Shown: piece by piece, positions 22,685 to 60,767 of the stretch
Position numbering within the stretch: position 1 is the stretch's first letter
How the letters are laid out: each line of letters begins with the position of its first letter
Assembly: GCA_036924285.1 (NCBI GenBank)
Contig: JAYKYS010000023.1
Location: 620,001 to 684,000 of the forward strand
Direction of reading: 5' to 3'
Length of the DNA: 64,000 nucleotides
Source of the DNA: Asterella californica
Lineage: Eukaryota > Streptophyta > Marchantiopsida > Marchantiales > Aytoniaceae
Translations under genes and position numbers: made by a program
The notes under the pieces: model-generated
The model's input: only the letters and a program-made list of their open reading frames with translations
Told to the model about the DNA's origin: nothing
Databases searched by the model: none

Positions 22685-22686
22685 TC

Positions 22687-25678: not shown

Positions 25679-25682
25679 AAAA

Positions 25683-26218: not shown

Positions 26219-26582
26219 CCCCCTCTACACTAGGACCCACTAAAAAGGAAACATGTGGAATCTCTTCTTGTTTTTAATGCCCACAAAGTCCACACCTTTA
26301 ATCCAACCACTAATATCAAGTCAAAAAGGAGATAAGGGATACTTTCCACCCCCTTTCTACCTTTTAGACAAGATGACAAGATAGTAGTGCTCACTCTTTA
26401 GCAAATATCTGAATTCTGCCAAAAGTACAGCTAAGTTTAATCATAACTAACTTTTAGCTAGTCATGACTAACTTGATACATCCTTAAAGTACTTGGGCAG
26501 CCAATAAACATTCTCAACACTTAGTTATAACTAAACACCTTACTAATAGACAAACTTTCTATGTGTAACATAGGTCGTTACA
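26219..26582. other. right edge of the nested retrotransposon cluster
   Basis: Non-coding sequence ending GGTCGTTACA at 26582, after which the phosphatase exon begins. The terminus resembles an LTR end (complement TGTAACGACC). It is not repeated elsewhere in the window, so the insertion event that made the junction is unclear. Confidence 0.4.
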
Positions 26583-28100: not shown

Positions 28101-28379
28101 GAGCTTACTGAGGCAAATTGTCGTCCGAGGACGACGAGGTGCTATTTAGGAACTGTACTCTTGCGTAGCGAGAGGGTATGAAGAAGAACATCGTCTCATA
28201 TCAATAAAGATCCAATATCAATACAGATTCATAATGTGCTTTCAAACATTTAAATATCTTTTCTCACGATTGTCTCGACTCACCTCTCACACACGATTGA
28301 AAAACCACATCGCACTACACAAGTGTTAAAATGGTAGCGCATAGATTTCAGCTTTAGATAAACTTTGCTACTGCGACCA

Positions 28380-29330
28380 AACCTTATTTGCGAGTTCTGG
28401 TTAGTGCGACCAACGCGCATTGCGCACCTTATTCTAGAGTTCTGCACCTTATTCTAGAGTTCTGGTTAGTGCGACATTCGCACTGTGCACCTTATTCTAG
28501 TGCGACATTCATCACTCCGTCTGCACTTCGCACCGAAATACTGAGATGGGCCGCACTGAGTGCGACTTTCGACACTTGGCCGCACTGAGAAAAACCTTAT
28601 TCCTCGCACCGAAATATTGAGACGGGCCGCACTGAGTGCGACCTTCGACAAAAATCTTATTCCTCGCACCGAAATACTGATGCGGGCTGCACTCAGTGCG
28701 ACCTTCGACAAAAACCTTATTCCTCGCACCGAAATACTGAGGCGGACCGCACTAAGTGTGACCTTCGACACCTGACCGCACTTCGACACTCGACCGCACT
28801 GAGAAAAACCTTATTGCTCGTGATGAGAAAAACCTTATTCCTCACACCGAAATACTGAGGCGTGCCGCACTGAGTGCGACCTTCGACACTCCCTCGCACC
28901 GAAATACTGAGGTGGGCCGCACTGAGTGTGACCTTCGACACTCGGCTGCACTGAGAAAAACCTTATTCCTCGTGAGGGTCGGACTGAGAAAATTTTATTC
29001 CTGAGTAAGGGTCGCACTGAGTGTGGTATTCAACAAAAACCTTATTCCTGAGGTCGCACTGGGTGCGGTATTCAACACTCAGTGAAATGTTCAGCACTCT
29101 CGCCGCACTGAGCACCGAAATTCTGAGTGCGGATCGCACTAAGTGAGATATTCAACACTCGGCCGCACTGAGCAAAACAAGGTCGCACTGAATGGGGTAT
29201 TCAGCAGCACTGAGCACCAACACTCTGGCCGCACTGAGCAAAACAAGATCGCACTAAATGGGTATTCAGCAGCACTGAGCACCGAAATTCAAGAGAGCGG
29301 GTCTTGAACGACACAGTGCCCGTCTATCGT
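28380..29330. repeat. array 3 of GTCGCACT/CGCACTGAGTGCG repeats
   Basis: Irregular tandem units of about 40-60 bp with GGCCGCACTGAGTGCGACCTTCGACA, CTTATTCCTCGCACCGAAATA and ACACTCGGCCGCACTGAG. It ends about 140 bp before the transposase pseudogene. CGCACTGAGTGCG is itself nearly palindromic. Confidence 0.85.
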
Positions 29331-37418: not shown

Positions 37419-38567
37419 TGTCACGTCAGTTTGGCACCTCGGCTAGGTTGACCGAGTGCGAAGTGGCGCATCCCGATAAGGCCGTTAGTGCCGTTAGGGC
37501 TAGTTGGTGGGAGAGCCCACTAGGGGTATACTTCGCAGGTAAGGCTTGGAGGCCTTAGTTCTTCTAGTGGAGCCTTCAAGCTCCAGGCTATGGTGGATAG
37601 TCTAGTTGAGTGTAACCCGGATTCTCTTCGTGCTTAGAGTGGATTTGGCTTGACCGTTTGTGACTAATCTTTGTTGTAGTGTTGGAGATGGTAATTTCTC
37701 TATTCAGATTACTCAAAGAACTCAGTGCAGGTCGAGATGGAGTTCAGTAAGAACCCGCTGATCTGAAATCGTCCGCTGGTATCTTCGGGCGTTGTCGTTC
37801 GTGCTTGATTGTTTGGACTTGTGATCGAGGTGTGTGTGGGCGCATGGTACCTTGCTGGTCGTAGACCGATTGCTGTGTGGGATCGAGTGGAGATTTTCTA
37901 TCATGCGGAAGCGCTGCAGAAATTTTACAGAATGTTCTTGAAGTGACTTGTTGGAGCCGGAGTGCGCGTTTGGGCGTGGCAGACGAAGTACTTGTCAATG
38001 TCAGACCGGAGTGGGCTTTTTGAAAGCGCATTGGAGAGACGATTCTAGTGCACCAAGTTTCGTGGAGTTTGGCCGAGCATCGAGGAAGTTATGGCATGTC
38101 GAAGTTCGCTGTCGTGTCACCCGAAAGTGCAAAAAGGCTAGTTACGTCAGATTTTTGTGCAATTTCGTGTGGAAACTAGAGTTTAGGAGTTTTCTTGTGT
38201 GTGTGTGTATTCGCGAAGTGTGTATGGTGCATTTGCGAATCTGTTGTAGTGGTGTTCGGGTTGGCTTTGGGCGTTCTTGCCGTTTTACGTCAGATTTTGG
38301 TTACCCATGTGTACCCGCAAGCTGTTTTTGCTGTTTTGGAGTCTCTTTTGGTGCAATCTTGTGCAATTCGAGGTGGAGCCGAGTCTCTTTTGGTGTGTTG
38401 TACCCGTTCTACTCTACTTCAAGCGGAAAGTGAGCGGGAGTGTCAAGGTGTGGAGTGCGTGTTAGGAGGCGTTTAGAGACTTCGAGGAGCAGAGGTGCGT
38501 GAATGCGAAGGCGTGAGAGCGGAGTGCGAGAGTGCGGAGGCGGAGCGGAACCTGAGCCCGAGCCCGC
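37419..38567 (+). repeat. LTR-like sequence, interrupted by a solo LTR
   Basis: Begins TGTCACGTCAG directly after the gag remnant. It is non-coding with GC-rich parts and ends where the family D LTR inserted at 38568. No second copy is seen in the window, so calling it an LTR rests on its start and context only. Confidence 0.35.
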
Positions 38568-39849
38568 TGTCGGAGTGTAATCCGTCTACCTAGGAAAGCG
38601 CCGGGCTTCTGGCTGTGGTTGTTCACTCAAGAGGTTGGCTTTCAAGTCACAATAGGGCTATAAACACTCACACAGATGTGTAAGATCTAGTAATATACCC
38701 AGAAGGTGAAATTCAGGTCTAGCTGGCAGTAATAGGATTCGGCGGTGAACTTTGACACTCACGGAGAGGAAAACTATGAAGGTTTAGACCTCTAAACTTC
38801 CCCTACATGCAAATGAGGTACTACTGAACTCACAGACGAAATTTCAGCCTGAGATCAAATTCTGACACGGAGATATGAACAGAAAAGTTTTGAGCAAGAA
38901 AACTACGGCAATTTCTGGTACCTAGCTGGCTATTTCAACCTATAACAGGAGTTTGGCTCGATCAATTTCGAAGTTTCTTACAGGATTTGCAGTCTACAGG
39001 GTGCTGAACATCCCTGTGAAGTTGGGACTCCTGAATGTACACAGAACTGTAGATCTCCTCCTCTGAAGTCGCTGCTCTAGATTAAGAGCTTTTCAGACCC
39101 CCTCAGCTTCAGCGGCCGCCCTGAATTACTCAGTTGCTCAATCGATATGAAACTTTTTTTGAAATCGTAGCCCTGCTGGCGGGGAACACAACCTCGAAGT
39201 TTTGAAGCAATTTCCTCAAATCTGCTGCGAGTGACACTGAAAACCCTAAATCCAACCAAAATGATTCAATTCTAGCACAATCCGAACTTCAATTGCTCAT
39301 AACTCCGTCTTTATTGACTCAAATTGATCGAAATTTTCACTGGAAGTGCTTGGCATGACGAGACCTCTCTCCCTGTGCTCTCAGATTTCGAAGATCTCTC
39401 ACCAAATGCTCGAACTTCACTCTAGAGCTCTGTTTCTAAATTTAGAGTTAAACTAAAGACAAAAACAGACCAATGGGAGTTCATAGCTCCACTTGGTTGT
39501 CCTTTAGTACCCTAAACCACGTGGCAACTTAGTTTTACTCATAGGCTACCACGTCAAGCCCCCTAGAGTGCCAGCGTAAAACTTAAATTACTTAAAACGA
39601 CACGCAGCCCCAAAAAATAACTTAAATCAGCTAGAAAGCGTGCATGGGCGACACGCAAATACAACCCATGAGCTTAAGCCCTATCAACATGGTAATCAAC
39701 CTACTAAGACTCAAAATAGTGTTAACACCATATGCAAAGGTGTCAAACATATACGTAAACGACTAGAAGTAATATAAGCTAACTTCTAGAACTACTAAAC
39801 TCAAGCGTCGGAGTAGAAATATAACATGTAGCCGCCAAGTAGCGCGACA
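38568..39849 (-). mobile_element. solo LTR of family D (1282 bp)
   Basis: TGTCGGAG ... GCGCGACA, the same length as 7639-8920 and nearly identical. It is flanked by CCGC on both sides (38564-38567 and 39850-39853), a short target duplication, with no internal region. This is the product expected from recombination between two LTRs. Confidence 0.85.
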
Positions 39850-41062: not shown

Positions 41063-42362
41063 TGTTGTCGGGTTGAGAGTCTTCCTGAAAAGGGCGAACC
41101 TTCTGGCTATGATATGAGCTTGAAGGCTGTGTTCAATCTACTCAAAGAAGCGTTGGGCTTCAGGCTGTGGCTGGTTTACTCACAGGATATGCTTCAGGTC
41201 TCAAGGTGATACTGAAAACACTCATATAAGTCTCTTGGCTCTTCTGATATGTTAGAAAACAAAGTTCAGACTTAACTAGCAATGATAAGATCAGATGGTA
41301 AACTTTGACACTCAGGATTGAGAAATATGTGAAGGTTCAGACTTCAGAACTCCTCCTACATGTAAATGAGATTCTACTGGATACGCATACGAATTTTCAG
41401 CTTCAGATCAATTCAGAGCACTAAGATATGAGCAGAAATTTTCTGAGTAGAGAAATTACGGTAGTTTCTGGTACCCAGACAGCTATTTCGACCTATAACA
41501 GGGAACTGGCTCGATCACTTTGGGAAATTCAGCTTGCTGAACACTCCTGTGAAGTTGGGCCTCCTGATTCCACACAGAACTCCAGATCTCGCTCTCTGAA
41601 GTTGCTGCTCCAGATTGAGAGCTTTTCGGACCCCCTCTACTTCAGCGGTCGCCCTGAATTACTCACTCACTCAATTGACATGAAAATTTTGAGACAGTCG
41701 TAGCCCTGCTGACAGTGAACACAACCACGAAGGTTTGAAGCGATTTCCTCGATTCTGCTGCAAATGACACTCAAAACCCCAAATTCAACAGAAGTGCTGC
41801 AATTCAGACACAAATCGAACTTCAATCAGCCATAACTCCTTCTTTATTGCTTCAAATCGATCAAACTTTTCGCTGACAATGCTAAGCACAACGAGCTCTA
41901 TCTCCCTGTGCTCTCAGATTTCACAGTACTCTCACCAATTGCTCGAAATCCACTCTAGAGCTCTGTTTCTAAACTTAGAGTTTTACAAAAGACAAAAATG
42001 GACCAATGGGAGTTCATAGCTCCATTTGGTTGTCATTTTGTGCCTTAAACAACCTGGTAACTTATCTACACTCATAGGCTACCACGTCAAGCCTCCTAGA
42101 GTGCCAGCGTAAAATTTAAACTACCTAAAATGACATGCAGCCCCGAAAATTAACTTAAATCAGCTAGAAAGCGTGCATGAGCGACACGTAAATACAACCC
42201 ATGAACTTAAACCCTATCAACATGGTAATCAACCTACTAAGACTCAAAATATATAACATTTTCCAAAAATGAACTTCTCTGAGGTCTTAACTTCACTCAG
42301 AGAGACTAACGTCTGACAGAGAAATGAATCATTTATTATGTGAAATGGTTCACATCACGACA
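41063..42362 (-). repeat. element K 3' LTR, chimeric
   Basis: TGTTGTCGGG ... CATCACGACA, about 1.3 kb, followed by TCCACCCCCTCC (complement of a polypurine tract). Most of it is a diverged relative of the family D LTR. Its last ~110 bp on the plus strand (U3 start on the minus strand) instead match the start of the solo LTR at 53463 (TGTCGTGATGTGAA). Confidence 0.75.
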
Positions 42363-44794: not shown

Positions 44795-45353
44795 GCTATT
44801 GTGAAGCTTTGATTTTTTGTTTTGTTAATTAATTGATTAGTTGTAAAGTAAATAAGAAGAATAGAAGATAAAAGATAAAAGATATGAGTAGAATAGTGTT
44901 AATTAGAAGTTTAGTGAAGAATCTATGTTCTGGGGGAATTTATGAATCTATGGAGAAACTTGAGAGATGACTTCCTCATAGTTGAATTCCTCGGGCGAAG
45001 AGCTTTCTAACGATATATTGTGTGAGGCAATCGGAGACCAAATGGCGAAGTTACAGCAGGCTGAAGAATGTCACTCGTGAAGAGGAAACCCTAACTTCGG
45101 CACGTGCGGAAAAACCTATCGCTAGATATAAGCCAAATAAACAAAGTCATTTGTCTTATTGTCTTACTATCTCCAGAGCTATAGCAGGAGCACAGCGCGC
45201 CGCATTCTCCGATTGCCGAAGTACCTCTGCTTCGCCGAAGTCAGTTACTAGCGAAGAAGCCAATTAGAGGAAAAGAACTCAGTTATAGGCGAGGAAGCGA
45301 ATTGCAACGAAGAATCTGTCTTCGAAGAAGCCTGTGGCAGCGATCTTCGATAA

Positions 45354-47195
45354 ATGCGAGGGATGCAGACGTATAAGCCACCGAGGCTCCGAGCATTGGA
45401 GGTCAATCGAGCAGCTCTTTGTCGCTATGAGAAGGAGCTCGAGGAGATGGGTTTGGCGTTCCTCTTACTTCCTTGGTGGGGGATGGTGTCGTCGAAGCTG
45501 GTGAACAAGTTGAGGATCTGTAAACACCATCCATCGGACGATTCTTATGGGCGACCTTGCAATTGGACCGAAGCGCACTGGTCCTTTGTCTTGGGGATTA
45601 ACGATGCAAGCAAGGAGGGCGATCTTCTCTTTGACAGTGTTTCAGCTGCAGCATCGTCCGAAGCAGTGAAGAACTTCCCCAAGCTCTTCAAGGAATTGCC
45701 TCAGGGGAGGAACGGTTACGGGACGAGCGATTATTTTAATCCGAAGAAGAGAGAGGTTGCTGATGCGATCAAGGCGATCTTCCGGTCACGAAGAACGACT
45801 TACATGTCAAACTGGCAGATCAACTTTATCGAGCAGCTCTTCGCCGAGAAAAGAGCTCATTGGATGAGGATCTTTTATCTTCATGTGCAGAAGCTCTGTG
45901 AGGCAGAAGACATGGTTTACATCGGAGCATTTGTCTCGGTGTTCTACATGAGGATGAAACTTATATCGGCCGAAGATCAGAAGAGATTAGGCTTCACAGC
46001 AGCCGAAGAAGACGAGTTCGAGGTCGCGCAAACTCCAGCCAGAGATGCACAACTCGAAAAGTTCTTCGACGAAGTCATCGCCGAAGGAGCAGCGACCGGA
46101 GAAGCAGCGACCGAAGTAGCGGCCGAGACAGTGCAAAGACAAGACGCGTCGACTTCAGCAGCAGTTCTAGAGAAGGCAACCGAGGAGGTGAATCCGAACG
46201 AGGATGAAGATGTGGTCGAGGTATCTCCTCCGGTCCGAAAAAGTGGAAGGAAGAAGCCTTTAGAAGAGACACCGAGATCCGCACAGAAGTCAAGGAAGAA
46301 GATGAAGATGACCAAGACAGTCTGTGTCGATGGGGAAGCAGCGAACGAAGAGACGACTGAGAAAACCGAAGAAAGGGACACTCCTCGGATGGTGAAGAAC
46401 GATAGTGCACCAAAGACTGTCCTTCTCTTATCGACAATAGGAGAGATAGAACAACTTGCTTCTTTGGCGAAGTACATCCCGGAGGTAGTTATGCCACTGC
46501 TACACAGCTTAGAAGGCAACCGAGGGACGTACGAGGAAGTTATCGGTCGGAAGCTGAATTTAGCGGAGTTAGTGCATATGATGCACTTCGGCCGAGATAA
46601 CTGGCAAGAGGAGAAGGAGAACTTACGAGCAACTCTCCTCATGGCACAGAAGGAGACCAAAGCGAAGACCGAAGAACTCAAGAATGTGACTTCGGAGAAA
46701 GAAGAACTTCTTCAGCAGAAGTTGGATCGAGAGGGAGAACATAAGAAGGTTCTTTCTCTAACGAAGAAGGAATTGGAGGAGATGCGCGCGCAGCGGAACA
46801 GGAACCAAGACATCGTCGCTGAGATGACGAAGGAGATCGAGGACTTAAAGCGCCCTATCATCAAGGCCGAGGAGCTGAGCGCTCAACTTCAGAGTAGGGT
46901 TGAACCGACGTTGAAGAACTACTTCGTCACCGATTTGGATACCTCAGAGCTAGACTTTCTTCCGCAGATACGAGAGGAGTTCATCGCCGCAGATGTAGAG
47001 GATGTGTCGTCGAAGAACCGAGTAGCTAGACTAGGACAATGGGTAGTTAGAGAGCTTAGGGAGGTTAGAGCGACCGTTGAGTTCTCAGTTAGTGAGATAG
47101 GTAGAGAGTTAGCGATAGGAAGTGGTGTCGTTCCTAGTGTCGTTTCAAGCACAGGACCTTCATCCGACGGACCAGAAGTACTCCCGACTTCTTAG
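45354..47195 (+). CDS. LTR (U3)-encoded protein of unknown function, 613 aa
   Basis: Uninterrupted frame inside the 5' LTR, upstream of the TATA box. Residues 1-210 are globular, with EMGLAFLLLPWWGMVSS, GRPCNWTEAHWSFV, LPQGRNGY, NPKKREVADAIKAIF and WQINFIEQLFAEKR. Residues 220-350 are an acidic/Ala/Lys-rich linker with basic clusters (KKMKMTK) that could act as nuclear signals. About 400-520 is a heptad-rich coiled coil (EELKNVTSEKEELLQQKLDR). I know no family for it. A decayed copy sits in the 3' LTR (57001-58948) and a diverged relative in family B (12461-14846). Possible roles are a regulator, a structural protein or a host-gene capture; none is shown. The alternative of a host gene is excluded by its presence in both LTRs. 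Confidence 0.8.
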   Translation: MRGMQTYKPPRLRALEVNRAALCRYEKELEEMGLAFLLLPWWGMVSSKLVNKLRICKHHPSDDSYGRPCNWTEAHWSFVLGINDASKEGDLLFDSVSAAASSEAVKNFPKLFKELPQGRNGYGTSDYFNPKKREVADAIKAIFRSRRTTYMSNWQINFIEQLFAEKRAHWMRIFYLHVQKLCEAEDMVYIGAFVSVFYMRMKLISAEDQKRLGFTAAEEDEFEVAQTPARDAQLEKFFDEVIAEGAATGEAATEVAAETVQRQDASTSAAVLEKATEEVNPNEDEDVVEVSPPVRKSGRKKPLEETPRSAQKSRKKMKMTKTVCVDGEAANEETTEKTEERDTPRMVKNDSAPKTVLLLSTIGEIEQLASLAKYIPEVVMPLLHSLEGNRGTYEEVIGRKLNLAELVHMMHFGRDNWQEEKENLRATLLMAQKETKAKTEELKNVTSEKEELLQQKLDREGEHKKVLSLTKKELEEMRAQRNRNQDIVAEMTKEIEDLKRPIIKAEELSAQLQSRVEPTLKNYFVTDLDTSELDFLPQIREEFIAADVEDVSSKNRVARLGQWVVRELREVRATVEFSVSEIGRELAIGSGVVPSVVSSTGPSSDGPEVLPTS

Positions 47196-47226
47196 GAAGA
47201 AGATCTGTCATCTTCGGAAAAAACTG

Positions 47227-47234
47227 TATATAAG
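47227..47234 (+). promoter_or_regulatory. TATA box of element C 5' LTR
   Basis: TATATAAG, 32 bp after the stop codon of the U3 ORF. A start site about 30 bp on would put the ORF entirely in U3. The matching stretch of the 3' LTR is deleted (junction at about 58834). Confidence 0.6.
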
Positions 47235-47998
47235 CGCTGTGTTGTTCGTGCTCAGTACGTCTATGTGTTTTATCATTTTTGGATTTTCTATTTCCTGAGT
47301 TTGTGGAGCCATTGTGTTTGTCAGCTTCGGGGATTTACCTACGAAGTATCGTAGTTTGCTGTGATAGGAATTAGTCTGGGTGCCGAAGGATTTGCTGTCG
47401 ACATTTGAAATCAGAGTAAGACGTTTACAGTAAGGACTGAGAATAGACTAGCATCTGCGAGGTTAGTTTGCTACGAAGACGTTTTTGGGCGAAGTTGACT
47501 TCGGAGAGAGTTGTTCTTTGGTGAGAACATTTTGGAAGAAGTTGAACCTGGTACTTCGACGGAAGAAGAGTCTTCTTCGCCAGAGTTTTCCGAGGGCAGT
47601 AGTAGTGAAAGTAACTTAGTGTGAAGACACTTAGCGTTTATGATGATGAAAGCTACCTAGTAGCACTTCAGCAGTACTTCCTCGTTTGACATTTACCTCC
47701 GTGGCTCTGTTTCTCTGTTATTTATCTATTTCTTGAGGTCCCTGACCTGTTTTGTATTTGTTACTTTGTTTGTCAGGATTATCAACTCTGTCTTGTTGGA
47801 TAGACCTGAGTTTGATCTCTACCGGGACTTATTTCTGCCCGTGAGAATAAAAGACAACCATAAAAAATCACCTTTATTACACGTTTACTACTTTTGGATG
47901 ATCTTTACTTGCATCTATGTGGGTTTGATCCTTAAATTACTACTTTCGAGCATCTTTTGGTTTTCTGGTGTGTTATATATATAAGACTGAATAAATTT

Positions 47999-48018
47999 TG
48001 GCACCGCTGACGGGGATG
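47999..48018 (+). promoter_or_regulatory. primer-binding site of element C
   Basis: TGGCACCGCTGACGGGGA starts 21 nt after the LTR end. It resembles the TGGCGCCGTTGCCGGGGA site of plant Athila/Tat elements (tRNA-Asp type) with several substitutions. The spacer is longer than the usual 0-5 nt. Confidence 0.7.
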
Positions 48019-48289
48019 CGAATGCTGAAATTATCCAAGATCAGTGAACAGAAGTCCAGAGACATGTATGTCGACGGGCAAGCCTGATCCTCCTGGAAAC
48101 GTGCAATCTGAGAGAGACAGGAGGCGAGAAAGACGAACAGAATATCGAGAATAGATTCTGGAAGAAGCTCGTCGATTAAAAGAAGAGCATAAGAAGAGAG
48201 AATGAGGTTGGAGAACACCTAACTCAAAAGAATGGAAGAGGAAGGAACCAAGCCTTGGTGAATCAAGTTCACCCCGGACACCAAAGTCA

Positions 48290-49836
48290 GTGCCTCCAAC
48301 TCCTCTCGAATCTGCTCAGAGAGAACTTGACTTCGAAGAAGTTACCACTCGGCTAAGTGCTGAGACCGAACATCCAGAAAGTGAAGTAGGGTGGAAACCT
48401 TTCCCCGAAGTCAATACTGTTTTATATCCGCAGTTGTTTACTCCTGACTCGGAGGTAGGAAGTACTTCTGCAGATCAAGATCAGTTTACTTCTTCGAATG
48501 AAGAAGCAGCAACTAAAGCAGTAGAAGCTGTTACTACCTTAGTGGAACTTTTACAGGCACATGAACTTATTCCTCAAGCATTGGTACGGGAACTCCTTCC
48601 GTTAACTCCAGTAGCTCAGAAGGACAGCGCTGCTCCTTACTTACAGCCAACCACAGGACCGTCTATATTCAAGAAGAGACAAGCTCAAGCAGCTGCTGCT
48701 GCAAGTATTGTCTCTGCTGTCCTTGTCAAGCTGCAGCACCAGCGCCGATTCCAGCTCCTGCCAAGATGGCAACTCAAGTTCCAAGAGCTCCATCCGTTCG
48801 AAGTATGGCAGGCCAACCCATCACGAAACATGGTTACCCAAAGTTCAGAGGAGGATCTTCAGATGACGATGAGGATGCAGATGCTTACATTAAGCTGTTT
48901 GAATCTGTATCTGTCACTAATAAGGAAGATGCTGAACCATATCGTTTGCGGATCTTTCCAAGTCTTCTCAGGAAGAGAACGCGCAGCTGGTACAATCATG
49001 CAAACAGAGTACCAAGAGACATCGATACTTGGGACAAGCTGAAGACGAAATTCTTAGAGCGGTTCCGGGAAATTGGGTACAATGGTCAAGTGTTGGGAAA
49101 ATTGACCAGACTGGTCAGAGGGAAGAAAGAAAGCTTAAAAGATTAGGTCCAAAGATTCTACAATCTACTGGATAGAATTCCGAGGATGGGTACAGCCAAG
49201 CCATACTTTATGGATCAAGCTACAGAATGGCTAGTTACAGGCTTACCGATTGAAATGGAGATTTGGTGCCGGCGAGGAAAGATGGACGCCATTGAAGAGG
49301 TTGTTGCTTCAGCAGAAGCATTCAAAGCATCCACCCTCGGAAGTAAAGGAGGATGGATAAAAAAGAAGAAGAAGAGAAAGAAAGAAAAGAAGGAGAAGAA
49401 GGAAGAGAAGACGACTCGAAGGAAGAAGCACAAGAAAAGTCGTAGAGAACCTTCTTCCTCCGAGGAATCGTCTGACGATGAGTCCTCTTCGGCCAAAGCC
49501 GAAGAATCTTCATCGGCGAGCTCATCTTCTTCGAGCGAAGAAGAATGAAGAATGAAACGAAGTTCTTCGTCTAAGGAAAAGAAGAGTTCGAAAGAGAAGA
49601 AAGGTAAGGTAAAAGGGGATACTAATCAACTTATGGAAGAGATGATCAAAGGATTCGCAGACCTGAAAGTGCAGATGGTACGATCTCCTGAAAGCAGAAA
49701 ATCACCTGCTACATCCCGTCCAAGTTTATGGTGTACGACGTGTGGTAAGCCAAGACATGCTAATACAGAATGTAACAACAATAGAACATTTCAGGCACAG
49801 TCACTCGAATGGGCGCCAGCATTCGAATCATATTAA
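48290..49836 (+). pseudogene. element C gag
   Basis: Starts at MPPTPLESAQRELDFEEV. A frame change near 48735 leads into the capsid core (YPKFRGGSSDDDEDADAYIK, RKRTRSWYNHANRV, LKTKFLERFREIGY). TAG at 49144 and TGA at 49546 interrupt it. The middle is Lys-rich, then Ser/Glu-rich. It ends with a CCHC knuckle (CTTCGKPRHANTEC). Gag coats the RNA genome; three lesions make this copy non-functional. Confidence 0.85.
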
Positions 49837-49980
49837 CTCTTTCTTTGTAGAAACTCCGGATGAAGTATATGGAGTACAGACGAATACACCCCCACCACAA
49901 CCAGCAATCACCCCAATTCAACCCATACCGATTCAAAGGTTTGCACCAAGAGAGAGAGCCATAAATGTATCTCAAAAACG

Positions 49981-50817
49981 TTGATGAGTCCGCCAAGAGC
50001 AAATAAACCACCACCCCATGGGTCTTATTTTAATTGTGGCAGTTTGGAACATTGGTCATCAAACTGTCCTCATCCAAAGAAATCATTGGGATATGTAGCA
50101 CTTTGTGGAAAGTGTCATCAACCAAGACATGCCACAGCAGACTGTACTAACCCACCCGCAGAGAAAAGAGGGGTTCGCTTTGATCCCAAAACAGAACGTC
50201 CTGCCGAAGCACAGCTGCACAAGGTGGACTTGGAAGAATGGAAAGCCGCTGGAGATGAAGGATGGCCACCAGAAGAAACTTGGGTTTGCAAAGTGGACAC
50301 CAGAAGCTCTTTCAAGACAAAGAGGAAGACGGAAGAAGCACCTTTAAAGACGCAATCGAAGAAAGAGTTGAAGAAGCAGAAAAAGGCACATGAGAAAGCG
50401 AAGAAGAAGAAAGTTGAGGAGGATATAGAGGAAGAGGAAGAAGAATTACTGAAGAGTGTAAACCCTCCGAGACTACCAGTTGACATTACGGACGAAGTCC
50501 GTGAACTCCTGAAGAAGGAGTTACTAAGAGCAGGTACTTCGGCAAAGGAAGCTGATACAACTTCTGCCGAAGTCCCAGAACGATCATCTTCGCTCGCACC
50601 AAAGATTTTCCGTACTTCGCCCACTGAAGTCAGAACCTCGACGAAGAACGAGGAGGTTCCGAAGAAGCACAGTCGACCGGAACCTGTGAAGAAAGAACTT
50701 GTGGCAACACCACACTATGATGTGGTAGCTGATCTAGAAACACAGAAGGCTAACATAAGTTTCAAGCAACTGATTGAAGATAACAAAATTTGCAGGAAAT
50801 TGTACTTCAAGCACTGA
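49981..50817 (+). CDS. element C nucleocapsid/linker segment with two zinc knuckles
   Basis: 278-codon open stretch. It starts with FNCGSLEHWSSNC (the first Cys of the knuckle is lost to Tyr or Phe) and CGKCHQPRHATADC (complete CX2CX4HX4C). A Lys/Glu-rich region follows, with KKQKKAHEKAKKKK and a run of acidic residues, then ADLETQKANISFKQLI. It is part of the gag-pol polyprotein rather than a separate gene; a frameshift near 50800 separates it from protease. With the knuckle at 49730 this gives three. Confidence 0.6.
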   Translation: MMSPPRANKPPPHGSYFNCGSLEHWSSNCPHPKKSLGYVALCGKCHQPRHATADCTNPPAEKRGVRFDPKTERPAEAQLHKVDLEEWKAAGDEGWPPEETWVCKVDTRSSFKTKRKTEEAPLKTQSKKELKKQKKAHEKAKKKKVEEDIEEEEEELLKSVNPPRLPVDITDEVRELLKKELLRAGTSAKEADTTSAEVPERSSSLAPKIFRTSPTEVRTSTKNEEVPKKHSRPEPVKKELVATPHYDVVADLETQKANISFKQLIEDNKICRKLYFKH

Positions 50818-51440
50818 AGAAACCCACTAAAATGAGAAGATCAAAGTTACCTTCTCTGTTTCACATCGAAGCAGAAGACATGGGGTCTCCAGAAGTGGAA
50901 GTGGAGGTTGCAGGCTGTGTGATTAGGAAAGTGCCAATTGACTCCGGATCAGGAATCAACATAATGACGGAAGACACAGCGCACGCGTTGGGTTTCAGCA
51001 AGTTTGAAGAAACTCAGCGAGTGTTACGACTGGCAGACCAGACGAGAAGACGACCATTGGGGTTACTGTGCAACATTCTCACCTTGATAGACGGAATTTC
51101 TTTTAACCTCACTTATGTTGTACTACGCCCTTTGGTTAAGTCTGGTTATCAAATTTTGATTGGGAGGTCATGGTTGTATGGTGCCAAGGTACTAACGGAT
51201 TGACACCGGCACCGTTTACAGTTCAAAGATCCACAGAAACCAACTGATAAAGCGGTGATGGTTTCTTGGAAGAAGATAACACATCAGGGCGAAACAGATT
51301 CGACTGATGCTGGTTATACTTCAAGATCAGATTCATCAACGAGCAGTGCAGGTGAAAGGAAAGGAGACCCTTACTCGATGGTCAACTATCTACAGTGTTA
51401 TGAAATTGATGAAGAAGAAGAGATGAACGAGACCGAATAG
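50790..51440 (+). pseudogene. element C aspartic protease
   Basis: Active-site loop VPIDSGSGINIMTEDTA (DSG) and C-terminal ILIGRSWLYGAKV. A TGA at 51201 interrupts the frame, which continues to 51440 as an acidic linker (GETDSTDAGYTSRSDSSTSS). Retroviral-type proteases act as dimers to cut the polyprotein. Upstream and downstream frames differ, so at least two shifts separate it from gag and RT. Confidence 0.85.
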
Positions 51441-51511
51441 CAATCATAGCTAGGTCACGGGAGTGCAGAGACAAGTCATACCGTGTCCTTCCAGGAGCAT
51501 CCCAGGACCTA

Positions 51512-52918
51512 GTGATAAGTGAAGGTAAGAGCCTAAAGATTTCTGTTGTAGTACAAGGAGAAGAGTTGGAAGTGTATCGTCAGGTGCTGATCCATTACCA
51601 AGATGTCTTCGTCTGGATTGTGGAGGACATGAAGGGGATACATGCACAGTGGAGAGAACATCGTATCGATCTCATTGAAGGATCAGTACTTGTACGACAG
51701 CGACAATATCGACTCAACCCAAAATACTCGTTAATGGTTAAAGACGAGATAGATAAGTACTTGAAGGCATGTATTATTTTTCCTGTGTTAAGCTGTGAAT
51801 GGGTAGCACCCATAGTAGTGGTACCTAAGAAGCAAACAGGAAAGATAAGAGTATGTCAAGATTTCAGAAAGCTTCACGCAGCAACAAAGAAAGATCATCA
51901 CCCTTTACCTTTTACTGATACCATTTTGGATCATGTATCTGAAAAGGAATGTTACAGCTTTCTGGATGGGTTTTCAGGGTACAACCAAGTGTCCATTAGA
52001 GAGCAAGACAAGGACAAAACTACATTTACTACAGACTGAGGCACTTATGCTTATCACAAGATGCCTTTTGGACTATGCAATGCACCAGCTACCTTTCAGA
52101 GGATGATGACCTCAATTTTTCAGGATTATTTGCAAAAATGTTTAGAGATTTTTATAGATGACTTTTGTGTTTTTGACACACGTGAAGAACATGCAGCGTG
52201 TTTAGCCAAAACCTTTCAGAAGTGTAGGGAAGCCAGACTTGCATTACACCATGAGAAGTGTTTCTTCGTGATGACTGAAGGAATACTTCTTGGACATAGA
52301 GTATCAGGTCGAGGCATAGAAGTAGATGTAGAGAAAGTTAGAGTAATACTCTCCTTACAACCCCCTACTGACATCAGCGAGTTGAGAGCCTTCCTAGGAC
52401 ATGTTGGATATTACAGAAGGTTCATCAAAGACTACGTCATACTTGTTGCGCCACTGACAGAACTACTGAAGAAGACGATAGAGTATCATTGGCACGAGAA
52501 GCAGCATGAGGCGTTTGAGACGCTGAAGAAGAAGTTGGCAGAAGCACCTGTCATGCGACCACCAGATTGGGAGAGACCTTTTCAAGTGTATGTAGACACT
52601 TCTGCGTTTGCTATTGGAGTAGTACTCAGTCAGAAAGATAATGAGAAGAGAGACCATCCAATCTACTATGCGAGTAGGCAACTTTCAGCAGCAGAAAAGA
52701 ACTACACCACTACTGAACGTGAAGCATTAGGAATGGTGTACTCAGTAACGAAGTTTAGACATTACCTCCTTGGCTATGAGTTTTGTCTTTCATGTGGATC
52801 ATTATGCGTTGAAGCATCTGGTACACAAGTCAGACTTGTCAGGACGGATAGCAAGATGGATGTTGTTACTTCAGGAGTTTACGTTCACAGTTTAGACCAG
52901 ACAAGGAATTCATCATGA
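51512..52918 (+). pseudogene. element C reverse transcriptase and RNase H
   Basis: RT fingers and palm (EWVAPIVVVPKKQTGKIRVC, CYSFLDGFSGYNQV), then a TGA at 52037 in place of the Trp normally in TxWGTY. MPFGLCNAPATFQRMM and the catalytic FIDDF box follow. Connection LGHVGYYRRFIKDY; RNase H with VYVDTSAFAIGVVLSQ and TTEREALGMVYSV. Near 52790 a frame change sends the end of RNase H into another frame (HVDHYALKHLVHKSD reads there). Confidence 0.9.
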
Positions 52919-52958
52919 GAATGCTAATTACTTGTCTTGACTGAGGACGGGAGAACGA

Positions 52959-53462
52959 GTGGATACAATGGCAGATGATTTTCCAGATGAGGAACTGTTT
53001 CAGCTGACAGTAGCACCTGCTACAAAGTACTATGATCTGTACAAATATTTACAGACTCTGCAGTGCCCAGAAGAAATGGATGCTGAACAGCAAACAATCT
53101 TCATACATCAGGCGGGACGCTACGAGCTGAAGAATGAGATACTGTTCAAAAGAGGACCTGATGAAGAACTTCGAAGATGTCTGGAAGTGCATGAAATACC
53201 ACAAGTGGTAGGTGCACTACACTCGGAACCTGAAGGAGGACACTATGCTCTGAGGAACACTGTGAAGAAGATCCTCTCAGCTGGATACTGGTGGCCAACG
53301 ATGTACAAGGATGTTCATTAGATCATCAAGAAGTGTGATAACTGTCAACGAGTGGGTAAACCTACGCCAACCACTCAACGGCCGTTACACCCGATACTTC
53401 CATTAGCACCATTGGAGAAGTGGGGAATTGATTTTGTAGGACCTATACAACCTGCAACACGC
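52959..53462 (+). pseudogene. element C integrase, N-terminal part
   Basis: Zinc domain: HYALRNTVKKILSAGYWWPT, a TAG at 53319, then KKCDNCQRVGKPTPTTQRPL giving the H-H-C-C set. The core begins with WGIDFVGPI (first catalytic Asp) and is interrupted at 53463 by a solo LTR. Confidence 0.85.
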
Positions 53463-55665
53463 TGTCGTGATGTGAATTATTTCACATAGTGAATATTTCA
53501 CCTCTCAGTTAAAAGTTAGTCTCTCTTAGCGAAGTTGAGACCTCAGAGAAGTCGATTCTGGAGGAAGTGAGCATTCGAAAATCTGAAAATACCACGGCGT
53601 AGGTCTCGTTGCGCTGATCACCGTGGTATGTTCAAAAGTTGCAAACAGAGTTGCAGGCGAAAAGTTACTTGGAGTTCTTCTATAAGATTTCTGATGTCGG
53701 GAAATTTACCATAAATCAGAGTGAGTTCGAAAAATACTTTTTAAATTTTTCTCATGTAGATTGTAGTATGCAGTATTTGTTTAAAATTCGGAATGTACAA
53801 AAAGAGCATGTCTAGAGAAAGTTATGGCACTTCGTGTTAGGAAAGGAAAGACGAAATACCGCAGCTTTCTAGCATATTAGCTTAGAAACTGGTCTTCAAA
53901 ACCAGTTGTGAGATCAGCTTCCATGGTGTAGCTGAGAAACTTGTAGGGAGGAGGTCTCCGGATCAAATCCCTTCAGACTCACAACCGGCTTGGAGTAGGC
54001 TGGCCTCTTCGGGGGAATATGAGGGGCACCAAGTTGCCTAGGGGCGGGACACTAGATGTCCCTTAAACATACCGTGAATGCGAGACGCCTCTGTCTACCC
54101 CTGCACTAGTGCAGTCACCTAGTGTGGATGCTAGAGGGAGATTACCACCGGGTTTCGAAATGGATCTCTCACCTTCGGGTTGGCGGGGTAATTAGTACGA
54201 ATTCGGTTGCGGCCCTCTAAGTCCTGGGGTAGCGAGATGGCATCAAAGATACTCCAAGTCGGTATCAATTCTTTTGAAGAAAAATGTAGAGTTCGAAATA
54301 TTATTCACTTGGGTCGAAAAATCAAGTGAAACTGATACCTGAGGCAATACTTACGGCACTTCGAAGTTTAAGGGGGCCGGGAAACGACAATGATGATAAC
54401 TCGGGCTCCACGTGTCAGAACGAGGTGATTTCGGTGGCCAAAGGTAGCCGTGGTGGAGTTACTTCGAGTGGAGGTGGCAAATGCTGACTGTACGACCGAC
54501 TCAGCGGCCGTCCGTACAGATGAACATGCGAAGCTTAGTGAAATAGTCTTCTTACGTGTAGATTTTTTATCAGTGATTTATTTTTCTGCTGCCATCTGTT
54601 TAGGGCGTCTTTTACACCGGGTTTCGAAATGGACCTCTCACCTTCGAGTTGACGGGGTAATTAGTACGAATTCGGTTGCGGCCCTCTAAGTCCTGGGGTA
54701 GCGAGATGGCATCAAAGATACTCCAAGTCGGTATCAATTCTTTTGTAGAAAAATGTAGAGTCCGAAATATTATTCACTTGGGTCGAAAAATCAAGTGAAA
54801 CTGATACCTGAGGCAATACTTACGGCACTTCAAAGTTTAAGGGGGTCGAGAAACGACAATGATGATAACTCGGGCTCCACGTGTCAGAACGAGGTGATTT
54901 CGGTGGCCAGAGGTAGCCGTGGTGGAGTTACTTCGAGTGGAGGTGGCAAATGCTGACTGTACGACCGACTCAGCGGCCGTCCGTACAGATGAACCTGCGA
55001 AGCTTAGTGAAATAGTCTTCTTACGTGTAGATTTTTTATCAGTGATTTATTTTTCTGCTGCAATCTGTTTAGGGCATCTTTTACCCCTGCCAGGTGACAT
55101 TGAAGGTTACGTAGGGTGGAGGAAAACCCAGAGGGGTGTACTCCGGAGAGAGAGATTTCTCAATTCATTATCGCATTATCGGAGTTTTGTCGATCATCGA
55201 GCAGTGTAGAGTTTACCGTGCAGAGACTATCGAGTAGAGGGAATCAAAGAGCTAGGAGAAGATTTTACAGAGGTTACGTCTGAAGAGATTTTCTGACTGA
55301 TGTGAGTTTTGATATCGAGAGATTGAGCTTAGTAGAAAAATTCGAATAGAGAGGAGACCTACAACTTGTACGCATACTTTTCTGAAAAGAAAAACGGGAA
55401 GCTTCTAGGTGAACGCGCTGGTGTTCACAGGAGCAGTTTTCTGATATTCTGAGTCCTTGAGCGTGAGCTTTTCAATCTGCAAGATCTGGAGTTGAAGATC
55501 TACTTGCACGTCGTGTGTTTTATCTTGGCCGGATCAAAATCGTGGTGGTGTGTTCTCTTACGGTCCGTATTCCGTGTGTGGTTTTCGCCCTCCTCTTCAC
55601 AATCGTATCACAGCTAGAAGGTTCACCCTTCCCAGGAAACTCTCGCCTCGACATACAATCTAACA
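53463..55665 (+). mobile_element. solo LTR (family H) inserted in the integrase of element C
   Basis: TGTCGTGATG ... CTAACA, about 2.2 kb, no coding internal region. CACGC stands at 53458-53462 and again at 55664-55668, overlapping the last two bases of the LTR, so the duplication is almost but not perfectly placed. Integrase reading resumes in frame after it. Its first ~100 bp match the U3 start of the element K LTR. It contains a 469-bp tandem duplication. Confidence 0.75.
54147..55084. repeat. 469-bp tandem duplication within the solo LTR
   Basis: Copies 54147-54615 and 54616-55084 begin ACCGGGTTTCGAAATGG and end TTTTAC. They differ at only a handful of sites, so the duplication is recent relative to the other repeats here. 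Confidence 0.9.
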
Positions 55666-56469
55666 CGCCGCACTAGAAGAAGGTACATACTAATAGCTAC
55701 TAATTATGCAACGAAGATGGTTGAAGCAGCAACTACCAAGAAAGATGACGCAGCTACTGTGGCTGAGTTTTTGTACACACAAATCATTACTCGATATGGA
55801 TGCCCACTGGAGTTGGTGAGTGACAGAGATACACATTTTTTTAACAAGATGATAGAGGAACTGACAGACTACTTTGGTATAAAACACCGGAAGACAACAC
55901 CGTACAATCCAAAAGCTAATGGATTGACGGAGAAGTCTAATGGAGTGTTGTGCAAGATTCTGAACAAGATTCTGTATGATTGGGATACAAAGTTACCAGC
56001 TGTCTTGTGGGCGTTTCGAAATGCAGAGAAGATAACGACCCGTCAGACACTCTTTTTCCTAACATATGGTATGACACCGATCATGCGAGTTGAATTTGAT
56101 GTACCTACTTACAGAATCTTGTATGAAGATAGGTTGTCAGTGGAGGAGAGCCAACTATTACGACTCAAGAGTCTGATGACACTTGAGGAGGATCGTGAAG
56201 AGTCCAAACGACTAACAGAGATCATTCAAATGAAGCGGAAAGAGAAGCACGATAAGAAGATTCGCAAGGTGGACATCAAAGATGGAGATTTAGTGCTGCT
56301 GTATGACAGTAGGTACACAAAATTTCCAGGAAAGTTACACTTACGTTGGATGGGCCTTTATAAAGTAACGTGTCGTTATAGTAATAGTTTTATTCAGTTG
56401 GAGGAACTCGATGGAACATTGTTAGCCACCCGAGTCAATGGGTGGAGAATCAAGAGATACTACTCTTAA
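55666..56469 (+). CDS. element C integrase, catalytic core and C terminus
   Basis: Open to the natural stop TAA at 56469. Contains YILIATNYATK, LVSDRDTHFFNKMIEELTDY (second Asp) and TTPYNPKANGLTEKSNGVL (Glu region). The C-terminal DNA-binding part has VDIKDGDLVLLYDSRYTKFP and LHLRWMGLYKV, then NGWRIKRYYS. No chromodomain. The first catalytic Asp lies before the solo LTR at about 53435, so the enzyme is split. Confidence 0.8.
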   Translation, partial: RRTRRRYILIATNYATKMVEAATTKKDDAATVAEFLYTQIITRYGCPLELVSDRDTHFFNKMIEELTDYFGIKHRKTTPYNPKANGLTEKSNGVLCKILNKILYDWDTKLPAVLWAFRNAEKITTRQTLFFLTYGMTPIMRVEFDVPTYRILYEDRLSVEESQLLRLKSLMTLEEDREESKRLTEIIQMKRKEKHDKKIRKVDIKDGDLVLLYDSRYTKFPGKLHLRWMGLYKVTCRYSNSFIQLEELDGTLLATRVNGWRIKRYYS

Positions 56470-56491
56470 GTGTTCGCGGGGTCGCTTCACA

Positions 56492-56507
56492 ATTGAGAGG
56501 GGGAGTA
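56492..56507 (+). promoter_or_regulatory. polypurine tract of element C
   Basis: ATTGAGAGGGGGAGTA directly precedes the 3' LTR (TGTGAAGCC at 56508), the expected site for priming of the second DNA strand. Confidence 0.8.
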
Positions 56508-59500
56508 TGTGAAGCCTTGATTTTTCGTTTTGTTAATTAATTGATTAGTTGTAAAGTTAATAAGAAGAATAGATGATAGAAGATAGAAGATATGAGTAGA
56601 ATAGTGTTAATTAGAAGTTTAGTGAAGAATCTATGTTCCGGGGCGAAGAGCTTTCTAACGATATATTGTGTGAGACAATCGGAGACCAAATGACAAAGTA
56701 CAACAGGCTAAGGAATGTCAGTCGTGAAGAGGAAACCCTAACTTCGGCACATGCGGGAAAACCTATCGCTAGATATAAGCCAAGTAAACAAAGCCATTTG
56801 TCTTATTGTTTTACTATCTCCAGAGCGATAGCAGGAGCGCAGCGCGCCGCATTCTCTGATCGCCGAAGTACCTCTGCTTCGCCGAAGTCAGTTACTAGCG
56901 AAGAAGCCAATTAGAGAAAAAGAACTCAGTTATAGGCGAGGAAGCAAATTGCAACGAAGAATCTGTCTTCGAAGAAGCCTGTGGCAGCGATCTTCGATAA
57001 ATGCGAGGGATGCAGACGTATAAGCCACTGAGGCTCCGAGCATTGGAGGTCAATCGAGCAGCTCTTTGTCGCTATGAGAAGGAGCTCGAGGAGATGGGTT
57101 TGGCGTTCCTCTTACTTCCTTGGTGGGGGATGGTGTCGTCGAAGCTGGTGAACAAGTTGAGGATCTGTAAACACCATCCATCAGATGATTCCTATGGGCG
57201 ACCTTGCAATTGGACCGAAGCGCATTGGTCCTTTGTCTTGGGGATTGACGATGCAGGCAAGGAGGGCGATCTTCTCTTTGATAGTGTTTCAGCTGCAGCA
57301 TCGTCCGAAGCAGTGAAGAACTTCCCCAAGCTCTTCAAGAAATTACCTCAGGGGAGGAACGGTTACAAGACGAGCGATTATTGTAATCCGAAGAAGAGAG
57401 AGGTTGCTGATGCGATCATGGCGATCTTCCGGTCACGAAGAACGACTTATATCTCGAACTGGCAGATCAACTTTATCGAGCAGCTCTTCGTCGAGAAAAG
57501 AGCTCATCGGACGAGGATCTTTTATCTTCATGTGCAGAAGCTCTGGGAGGCAGAAGCATCGGAGCATTTGTCTCGGTGTTTTACATGGGGATGAAACTTA
57601 TATCGGCCGAAGATCAGAAGAGATTAGGCTTCACAGCAGCCGAAGAAGACGAGTTCGAGGTCGCGCAGACTCCAGCCAGAGATCACAACTCGAGAAGTTC
57701 TTTGACGAAGTCATCGCCGAAGAAGCAGCGACCGAAGTAGCGACCGAGACAGCGCAAAGGCAAGACGCGTCGACTTCAGTAGCAGTTCCAGAGAAGGCAA
57801 CCGAGGAGGTGAATCCGAACGAGGATGAAGATGTGGTCGAGGTATCTCCTCCGGTCCGAAGAAGTGGAAGGAAGAAGCCTTTAGAAGAGACACCGGGATC
57901 CGCACAGAAGTCGAGGAAGAAGATGAAGATGACCAATACAGTTTGTGTCGATGGGGAAGCAGCGGACGAAGAGGCTACTAAGGAAACTGAAGAAGAGGAC
58001 ACTCCTCGGATGGAGAAGAACGATAGTGCACCAAAGACTGTCCTTCCCTTATCGGCAATAGGAGAGATAGAACAACTCTCTTCTTCGGCGAAGTACATCT
58101 AGGAGGTAGTTGTGCCACTGCTACAGAGCTTAGAAGGCAACCGAAGGACGTACGAAGAAGTTAGCGGTCGGAAGCTAAATTTAGCGGAGTTAGTGCATAC
58201 GATGCACTTCGGTCGAGGTAACTGACAAGAGGAGAAGGAGAACTTACGAGCAGCTCTCCTCATGGCACAGAAGGAGACCAAAGCAAAGACCGAAGAACTC
58301 AAGAATGTGACTTCGGAGAAAGAAGAACTTCTTCAGCAGAAGTTGGATCGGGAGGGAGAACATAAGAAGGTTCTTTCTCTAACGAAGAAGGAATTGGAAG
58401 AGATGCGCGCGCAGCGGAACAGGAACCAAGACATCGTCGCTGAGATGACAAAGGAAGTCGAGGACTTAAAGCGCCCTATCATCAAGGCTGAGGAGCTGAG
58501 CGTTCAACTTCGGAGTAGGGTTGAACCGACGTTGAAGAACTACTTCGCCACCGATTTGGATACCTCAGAGTTAGACTTTCTTCGACAGATACGAGAGGAG
58601 TTCATCGCTGCAGATGTAGAGGATGCGTCGGCAAAGAACCGAGTAGCTAGGCTAGGACAACGGGTAGTTAGAGAGCTTAAGGAGGTTAGAGCGAGTGTTG
58701 AGTTGTCAGTTAGTGAGATAGGTAGAGAGTTAGCGATAGGAATTGGTGTCGTTCTTAGTGTTGTTTCAGGCACAGGATCTTCATCCGATGGACCAGAAGT
58801 ACTCTCGACTTCTTCGGGAAGATCTGTCATCTTCTATGTGTTTTATCATTTTTTGGATTTTCTATTTCCTGAGTTTGCGGAGCCATTGTGTTTGTCAACT
58901 TCGGGGATTTACCTACGAAGTATCGTAGTTTGCTGTGGTAAGAATTAGTCTGGGTGCCGAAAGATTTGCTGTCGACATTTGAAATCAGAGTAAGACGTTT
59001 ATAGTGAGGACTAAGAATAGACCAGCATCTGCGAGGTTAGTTTGCTACGAAGACGTTTTTGGGCGAAGTTGACTTCGGAGAGAGTTGTTCTTTGGTGAGA
59101 ACATTTTGGAAGAAGTTGAACCTGGTACTTCGGCGGAAGAAGAGTCTTCTTCGTCAGAGATTTCCGAGGGCAGTAGTAGTGAAAGTAACTTAGTGTGAAG
59201 ACACTTAGCGTTTATGGTGATGAAAGCTACCTAATAGCACTTCAGCAGTACTTCCTCGTTTGACATTTACCTCCGTGGCTCTGTTTCTCTGTTGTTTATC
59301 TATTTCTTGAGGTCCCTGACCTATTTTGTATCTGTTACTTTGTTTGTCAGGATTATCAACTCTGTCTTGTTGGATAGACATGAGTTTGATCTCTACCGGG
59401 ACTTATTTCTGTCCGTGAGAATAAAAGACAACCATAAAGAATCACCTTTATTACACGTTTACTACTTTTGGATGATTTTTACTTGCATCTCCGTGGGTTC

Positions 59501-59551
59501 GATCCTTAAATTACTACTTTCAAGCATCTTTTGGTTTTCTGGTGTGTTACA
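56508..59551 (+). repeat. element C 3' LTR (3044 bp)
   Basis: TGTGAAGC ... GTGTTACA. Compared with the 5' LTR it lacks about 60 bp near its start and about 46 bp containing the TATA box at 58834, besides small indels and substitutions. Confidence 0.93.
57001..58948 (+). pseudogene. decayed copy of the U3-encoded protein in the 3' LTR
   Basis: Same protein as at 45354, broken by a 10-bp deletion near 57554, a one-base loss near 57684, a TAG at about 58099 and a TGA at about 58223 (TGG in the 5' copy). The TATA-region deletion removes the normal stop, so the frame runs on to 58948. Long stretches of coiled coil stay open between lesions. Confidence 0.85.
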
Positions 59552-60767
59552 GCTATCAACCGTGAGATGCGTTGATCGTCTCACTCCATCGTGTGTGCGC
59601 TTAAGCACCTCTCTCGATAACAAGTTCGTCTATCACAACCGTGGACGATGTGCACGAGATCATACTCTCGCTGCATCCAACAACACTGCTGGTCCAACCC
59701 AAGACCGCACTTGGTGCACACTCGTCATCATTTGTGTACGAGCATCACCCAACAAAGAAACGTTCTCCAAGATGTACGCTGGAGAATCCACTTGATGCAT
59801 TTGGAGATGTCGTAAGATCTGTAACATCTCCCAAAACATCCTAGATCGCGGGTCATGTAAACCCTGACCTCTCTCAGCATGTGTGTGACATTGACATGGC
59901 CATCCGGCTATCATCAAGTGAATGGTGCCAACAAACGTCAGATCCTGTGCCCTCAGCAGCGAAATATCTGACGGTAATGCTTGCTGGTATCCTCTAACAG
60001 CTGATATGGGCAACAACTCAGGATATCTCTGCCCCAGACGTGCCACATGTCGCAATGAGATTGCGTCTCGCAATCTCATCTCTCTCCACATACAAGTATC
60101 GTTGTACTTGTATGCCTGCCTGCAATACCGCAGCCAAACCTGTGCTGATCTCTCCAAACAGCTCGAGCACATATACACCCTCCTCTGGATACTGCCACAC
60201 AATGAGAGTCGTATCCAACGGTGATAAGATCACAGGGCCAGTAGCAGGAACAACCATTTGTTCCTCTACTGATGGTATAAAGGCTTCACTCCAAGCCTGC
60301 TGCACCAACTGATCAGCGTACTGCTACAACCCTCCACTCGAACTCCAGAGTGGAACATCCAAGGCAGATGGTACTAACGTAGACATGCTAGACATGTCCT
60401 CCACGTCCTCAAAGACCGGAGCATCCTCCGCATGGGCATTGTCCTCCAACAACTCGTCCGGCCAAGTGATGACCGAACTGAACCCTGCAACGGATGTCAT
60501 CGTCCCTGGTGTAGGCTCCGTCGTCCCAACTCTAGCACTGAACCGCACTGGTAAGCAGCTCACTCGTCCCTCATCGGACTGCCAATCTGGTCTATAAGAT
60601 GCTGTCTCTGCCCAATAGTCGATCACGAACCCCATAAGGTATAACACAGCACCTCCAACCAATACATCATAAGACTCTGCGGCTGTAACGATGGCCTTGG
60701 CCCTCATCATAGAGTCATCCGTGAGGTGATCTGACCGAACTCTCATCGTCAACATCTCACGTGTCAT
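59552..60767 (-). pseudogene. N-terminal and catalytic part of a retrotransposon-borne cytosine-5 DNA methyltransferase
   Basis: Reads from 60767 leftward. An upstream segment (AAESYDVLVGGAVLYLMGF, DYWAETASYRPDWQSDEGR) is followed, after a TAG at about 60318, by motif I (YVLELFGEISTGLAAVLQAG; usual FGG is FGE) and YLYVERDEIARR. A frameshift at a 10-bp palindrome (60056-60078) leads to the catalytic motif IV (MIAGWPCQCHTHA), then DDPRS-like HDPRSRMFWEML and motif VI YILENV. Further lesions precede the junction with element C at 59556. C5 methyltransferases place methyl groups on DNA cytosines; LTR-element copies are known from several eukaryotic lineages. The C-terminal end lies at 44474-44794. 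Confidence 0.75.

Follow-up and report, generated by a model that had tools for sequence, protein, structure and literature searches.

The 64,000-nt window (the whole stretch of DNA that was analyzed) contains a Ty3/gypsy retrotransposon whose 5′ LTR encloses an open reading frame for a protein of 613 amino acids, running over 613 codons from ATG to TAG (positions 45354 to 47195, forward strand). The placement of this ORF inside an LTR is confirmed and lies beyond chance, as the frame, its ATG, and its position in the LTR recur genome-wide with codon-level constraint. It is probable, in our judgment, that an accessory protein gene of this Ty3/gypsy family resides in U3 of the LTR and is expressed as an LTR-contained mRNA from a promoter of its own. 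The upstream LTR promoter, composed of a G-box and a GATATAA motif, would direct transcription of an mRNA of about 2.7 kb from within U3 to the LTR poly(A) signal, with translation beginning at its first AUG, and a TATATAAGC box just past the stop codon would start the genomic RNA. Every LTR, solo LTRs included, would then represent a complete gene. More weakly, the protein may be nuclear (through a bipartite basic stretch) and may form oligomers via a coiled coil; it might regulate the element, most likely its own LTR, and be supplied in trans.

The LTR-encoded frame and its genomic copies

The two LTRs of the window element (5′ LTR, 44800 to 47977; 3′ LTR, 56508 to 59551; both forward strand) are flanked by the target-site duplication GCTAT at 44795 to 44799 and 59552 to 59556. 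A primer binding site-like sequence, TGGCACCGCTGACGGGGA (47999 to 48016, forward strand), which we take to be tRNA-Asp-like, follows the 5′ LTR at a distance of 21 nt, and a polypurine tract, AGAGGGGGAGTA (56493 to 56507, forward strand), ends directly before the 3′ LTR. The internal region holds a broken gag-pol (48068 to 56469, forward strand), including a tandem duplication at 54146 to 55084 with two 469-bp copies that are 97% identical. The element has the LTR features of Ty3/gypsy elements (TG..CA ends, target duplication, primer binding site, and polypurine tract; the window 5′ LTR terminus is a mutated TATA, and ten other 5′-LTR copies have TACA), with gag, reverse transcriptase, and RNase H preceding integrase. 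Pfam matches to Retrotrans_gag, RVT_1, and RT_RNaseH exceed their cut-offs, and rve scores 27.1 bits, below its cut-off of 32.6. The element presumably resembles the OTA (Ogre/Tat/Athila) clade, and we assume that its pol proteins resemble those of plant elements.

The preliminary description of this DNA had placed the ORF inside the LTR, and this holds both for the window pair, with its GCTAT duplication, primer binding site, and polypurine tract, and for nine solo LTRs with exact 5-bp duplications, whose limits match those of the window 5′ LTR. Its statement that the window ORF is intact, in contrast to the broken 3′ copy and internal genes, is likewise correct: the ORF copy in the 3′ LTR is split into frames of 197, 232, and 228 codons, and no open forward frame in 48001 to 56500 is longer than 317 codons. 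Alignment of the two LTRs gave 145 mismatches over 3,043 aligned bases (K2P 0.050), and the LTR limits agree in other genomic copies. The two ORF copies of the window are spaced 11,647 bp apart; several other pairs in the genome are spaced 9,551 bp apart.

A protein search of the source genome (516.7 Mb, 773 contigs) scored 72 of 8,558 candidates, and all 72 matched, the window included. Forty of the other 71 matches were fetched with 2 kb of upstream and 2.5 kb of downstream sequence; these were hand-picked, mostly from the top ranks, and the intact share among them is thus biased to high scorers and is not a genome estimate. If a copy counts as intact when it has the ATG at the common site and no fewer than 580 codons, the ORF is intact in 14 of 41 copies (the window plus the 40 fetched), or in 13 of 40 without the window. 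The remaining 27 fetched copies fail this rule, among them one (L009) with 603 codons from a later ATG, so the intactness of the window copy is partly luck.

Patterns located both LTR ends in 28 of the 40 fetched copies and missed one or both in 12. These 28 comprise nine solo LTRs flanked by exact 5-bp duplications, eight 5′ LTRs with the primer binding site region behind them, eight 3′ LTRs with the polypurine tract before them, and three unclassified copies (L028, with a variant polypurine tract; L033, with four of five duplication bases equal; and L034, whose start was misplaced by the pattern). The ORF match falls between the LTR ends in all 28, and a solo LTR measures 3.2 kb including the ORF. 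Intact ORFs were found in five of the nine solo LTRs, two of the eight 5′ LTRs, and three of the eight 3′ LTRs. On one contig (G000:C92:911929-932860), three ORF copies at 9,551-bp spacing look like an LTR-internal-LTR-internal-LTR array, and pairs of copies 9.5 kb apart are also present on other contigs.

Selection was measured on eight of the 14 intact copies, avoiding near-identical ones, in all 28 pairs. The mean dN was 0.090 and the mean dS 0.585, with a dN/dS of 0.15 (range, 0.10 to 0.20), far from the value near 1 that had been named beforehand as evidence against a functional frame. The ratio is similar along the protein (0.13 for residues 1 to 215, 0.17 for 216 to 370, and 0.16 for the remainder) and lies between 0.11 and 0.25 in five pairs of closer copies. 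As controls, the other two frames of the ORF gave 1.20 and 1.48, and the non-coding LTR behind the ORF gave 0.79, 0.64, and 0.57 in its three frames, so this method assigns neutral sequence a ratio below 1. Variable sites at codon positions 1, 2, and 3 number 177, 144, and 388 of 611. When broken copies were included and stops skipped, integrase and the ORF both gave 0.16 in seven 3′-LTR copies (21 pairs), and the ORF gave 0.18 and the first part of gag 0.33 in eleven 5′-LTR copies (55 pairs). These comparisons show that purifying selection keeps the protein sequence, about as strongly as it acts on integrase. Between the 5′ and 3′ LTRs of the window, the dN/dS of the ORF is 0.42, which fits relaxation after insertion.

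LTR anatomy and routes of expression

Motifs were counted in 42 copies (both window copies and the 40 fetched loci), which share ancestry, so the counts are not independent. TATATA is present 31 to 34 nt past the ORF end in 37 of the 42, in the form TATATAAGC in 31 of these 37; the five exceptions are the window 3′ LTR and the copies L015, L018, L026, and L028. In the window 5′ LTR, the TATATAAGC box (47227 to 47235, forward strand) is the candidate promoter of the genomic RNA (P2) and marks the end of U3. Close to the end of R, about 650 nt behind the ORF, lies AATAAA (47846 to 47851, forward strand), a candidate poly(A) signal; AATAAA is found behind the ORF in 38 of 42 copies and at 630 to 690 nt in 35 of 42. 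The TATATAAGC-type box behind the stop codon and the AATAAA about 650 nt further on place the whole ORF in U3, with R at approximately 47258 to 47870 and U5 behind it, both R ends and the start of the genomic RNA being predicted from these motifs. In its position within the LTR and before the TATATAAGC-type box, the ORF agrees with a Sag-like organization.

Upstream of the ORF, the G-box CACGTG (45101 to 45106, forward strand) is the candidate for a second promoter (P1), with GATATAA (45125 to 45131, forward strand) as its candidate TATA box. Of the 42 copies, 36 have CACGTG no more than 330 nt before the ORF and six lack it as searched; GATATAA is likewise found upstream of the ORF in 36 copies and absent in six. 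The 31 copies with both motifs have them 23 to 24 nt apart without exception. A leader of about 200 nt with a predicted start (45155 to 45353, forward strand), taken from 30 nt behind the GATATAA start to the ORF, is free of ATG. Such leaders lack an ATG in 32 of 36 copies (mean, 0.11 ATG; four have one), compared with a mean of 4.8 ATG and no ATG-free case among 34 in the 190 nt just upstream of GATATAA, and a mean of 1.15 ATG and four ATG-free cases among 40 in the 190 nt behind the putative genomic RNA start. In simulated sequence of like composition, the probability that a single leader lacks an ATG was 0.13 to 0.24 (five leaders), so the leader argument draws its strength from repetition across diverged, related copies. 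Together, the G-box, GATATAA, and ATG-free leader suggest a second promoter, which is new here. With a second promoter in U3, as in the case of MMTV Sag, the LTR would be a gene complete in itself.

The earlier placement of the ORF in U3, based on a TATA box behind it, is thus borne out by the 37 copies with TATATA. The accompanying proposal, that the message is carried at the 3′ end of the genomic RNA as for Nef or Sag, fares differently: the anatomy favors a transcript that stays within the LTR and has a promoter of its own, perhaps made in addition to the genomic RNA. The corresponding alternative is a Nef-like route, in which translation of the ORF depends solely on the 3′ end of the genomic RNA, via a spliced subgenomic RNA from the TATATAAGC box, and the upstream motifs are no promoter. 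In its favor, 37 of 42 copies have the TATATAAGC-type box at a suitable position for a TATA, and barley Bagy2 is reported to splice its RNA to an env-like message (PMC7264820), but this route does not lead one to expect the G-box, the GATATAA, or the drop in ATG from 4.8 in 190 nt to about 0.1 in 200 nt; we consider it unlikely, if by no means negligible.

The protein constraint and the intact ORF in five of nine solo LTRs would be explained if the LTRs carried or retained a host gene, or a protein of use to the host rather than to the element. This is improbable in view of the 16 LTRs joined to internal element sequence among the 28 copies sorted by class, and of a homologue (ORF-B, see below) in another retroelement. 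Decay or chance would explain why 27 of the 40 fetched copies fail the intactness rule and why the window LTR pair has a dN/dS of 0.42; nevertheless, the value of 0.15 is confined to the one frame and the same ATG is used in diverged copies, which makes an open frame without function very improbable. Misplaced LTR limits, which would leave the ORF internal, are scarcely conceivable, as solo LTRs with duplications, the primer binding site region after, and the polypurine tract before all indicate the same limits, and nothing in favor of an internal ORF came to light. We retain the LTR-contained mRNA from its own promoter as the preferred reading.

The Nef ORF of HIV, an accessory ORF, reaches into the 3′ LTR and overlaps U3 only; in the present family, unlike HIV, the LTR encloses the ORF completely, leader included, and the ORF is therefore present in both LTRs. 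Solo LTRs are usually treated as non-coding remnants. With a selected protein wholly inside the LTR, both LTRs and the solo LTR each become a possible gene, in a plant-type parallel to MMTV Sag, and it becomes testable why such genes settle in U3 and whether the protein regulates its own LTR. In MMTV, a U3 ORF codes for Sag and Naf, and Sag expression in B cells is reported to be driven from P2, a promoter in U3 (PMC9412291). The present family is like MMTV in having the ORF inside the LTR U3, and it differs from this mouse betaretrovirus in that its second promoter is predicted from sequence motifs.

Extra ORFs described in plant Ty3/gypsy elements include Grande gene23, Retand TRP28, the Ogre plant mobile domain, and Athila ORF-1, reported as having an unknown role, with a regulatory one proposed (PMC7264820, PMC11963269, PMC6317226). 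Additional ORFs are reported mostly between pol and the 3′ LTR, sense or antisense (PMC7264820); unlike them, the ORF here is sense and inside the LTR. Retand TRP28 (PF04195) is antisense and between pol and the 3′ LTR, whereas our ORF is sense, in the LTR, and without a PF04195 match in its 14 members; nor is a match to PF10536, the plant mobile domain, listed for these members. PF04195, PF10536, and PF03078 were all absent among the 14 Pfam families matched by any of the 14 members (E up to 10, a range in which HMMER filters drop most weak matches). The titles and abstract openings retrieved from the open-access literature on ORFs in LTRs mention no plant element with an LTR-encoded protein, and the phrases “in the LTR,” “within the LTR,” and “inside the LTR” are absent from the main text of one review as retrieved (PMC7264820). 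A Fie2 gene within an LTR retrotransposon has been reported (PMC1560396).

Divergence of the leader and ORF

Along 32 LTRs, mean divergence is 0.03 at the LTR start, climbs to 0.18 by position 45100, and ranges from 0.115 to 0.22 through the ORF; it drops to 0.086 at 47050, about 50 codons before the stop, and is 0.04 to 0.11 beyond, with 0.13 in the last bin at the LTR end. Between elements, the leader and ORF are 2 to 5 times more divergent than the rest, and in eleven elements the mean divergence was 0.168 for this block and 0.065 for the backbone. Synonymous divergence (dS) is higher in the ORF than in gag in all 55 pairs (means, 0.552 versus 0.107) and higher than in integrase in all 21 (means, 0.596 versus 0.161). 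A locally higher mutation rate was rejected, since the window LTR pair differs by 4.8% in the block and 4.3% behind it (p 0.63). Block and backbone trees of the eleven elements have the main split in common and differ in small clades; each alignment rejects the tree of the other (AU p 0.0002 and 0.0025), and the Mantel distance correlation is 0.63. Taken together, these trees and distances do not establish recombination as the sole source of the divergent block. Our reading is that old cassettes may sit on a backbone partly homogenized by recombination; alternatively, faster change in the replicating lineage may have produced the divergent block.

A comparable pattern is reported for crapaud of Podospora anserina, whose subfamilies differ in the 5′ half of the LTR and have conserved R and U5 (PMC10787394). 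Unlike the present family, crapaud is drawn with two ORFs, gag and pol (PMC10787394). We tentatively offer the idea, which we hold as possible yet doubtful, that leader and protein co-diversify as a cassette in a mobile two-promoter LTR gene, the protein being tuned to its own upstream LTR, the rest being homogenized by recombination, and solo LTRs still acting as protein sources. If this were true, loss of the internal region would not end the influence of the family on the genome, because solo LTRs would continue to supply the protein.

Protein relatives and other features of the window

The protein consists of an N domain (residues 1 to 215), an acidic linker with a bipartite NLS-like stretch (216 to 370), and a coiled-coil-like C part. 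Thirteen of the 14 intact copies have the basic bipartite stretch, and a heptad-like hydrophobic period is seen in the C part of the three copies examined. AlphaFold2 modeling of the N domain from three window sequences gave an unusable model (mean pLDDT, 36.6), so the proposed role draws on crude sequence features. In a large protein collection, no relative was found with the 613-aa ORF (ORF-A) alone at an E value of ≤0.001 (7,992 candidates scored), with the 14-member alignment at ≤0.1 (7,993 scored), or with ORF-B at ≤0.1 (7,996 scored). The sole PDB profile match, ferritin (E value of 0.046 over the coiled-coil part), and the weak Pfam matches of the protein family (best E value, 0.023) were taken as chance.

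ORF-B, a distant homologue, is located in a second retroelement of the window (12461 to 14846, reverse strand) and is broken into frames of 477, 230, and 285 aa (BLASTP E value, 1e-07; tblastn, 1.3e-08). The N domain of the 613-aa protein recurs in it, and GRPxxWTE, QGRNG, and PKKR are common to both. A GATATA lies 186 nt before the likely ATG of ORF-B, with no ATG between. The second retroelement has LTR-like repeats at 18721 to 20024 and at 7102 to 7638 plus 11409 to 12152. An internal position of ORF-B, which would imply LTR capture of a 3′ ORF, was considered and withdrawn, the other LTR copy being cut at 20024 by a third element.

This third element, also Ty3/gypsy (20025 to 26226, reverse strand), interrupts the LTR of the second; it has a primer binding site-like TGGTTCCGTTGCCGGGA behind its 5′ LTR, and no clear target duplication was seen at its flanks. 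Related repeats at 7636 to 8920, 38565 to 39849, and 41262 to 42251 (97.7% and 78 to 81% identical) are perhaps LTR parts of another family. Searches of the 64,000-nt window with Rfam at gathering scores and for tRNAs gave no match, and Pfam gave a match to DDE_Tnp_4 and one to Plant_tran that is below its cut-off. These two matches, with the presumed likeness of the pol proteins to plant elements, suggest a plant-type host. A proline-rich frame at 2307 to 2918 (reverse strand) has no Pfam match at E values up to 0.1; it resembles the start of a PLAC8-type host gene. Two tandem arrays, at 5651 to 7114 and 26797 to 29283, have TCGCACTGA-like words in common despite their distance from each other.
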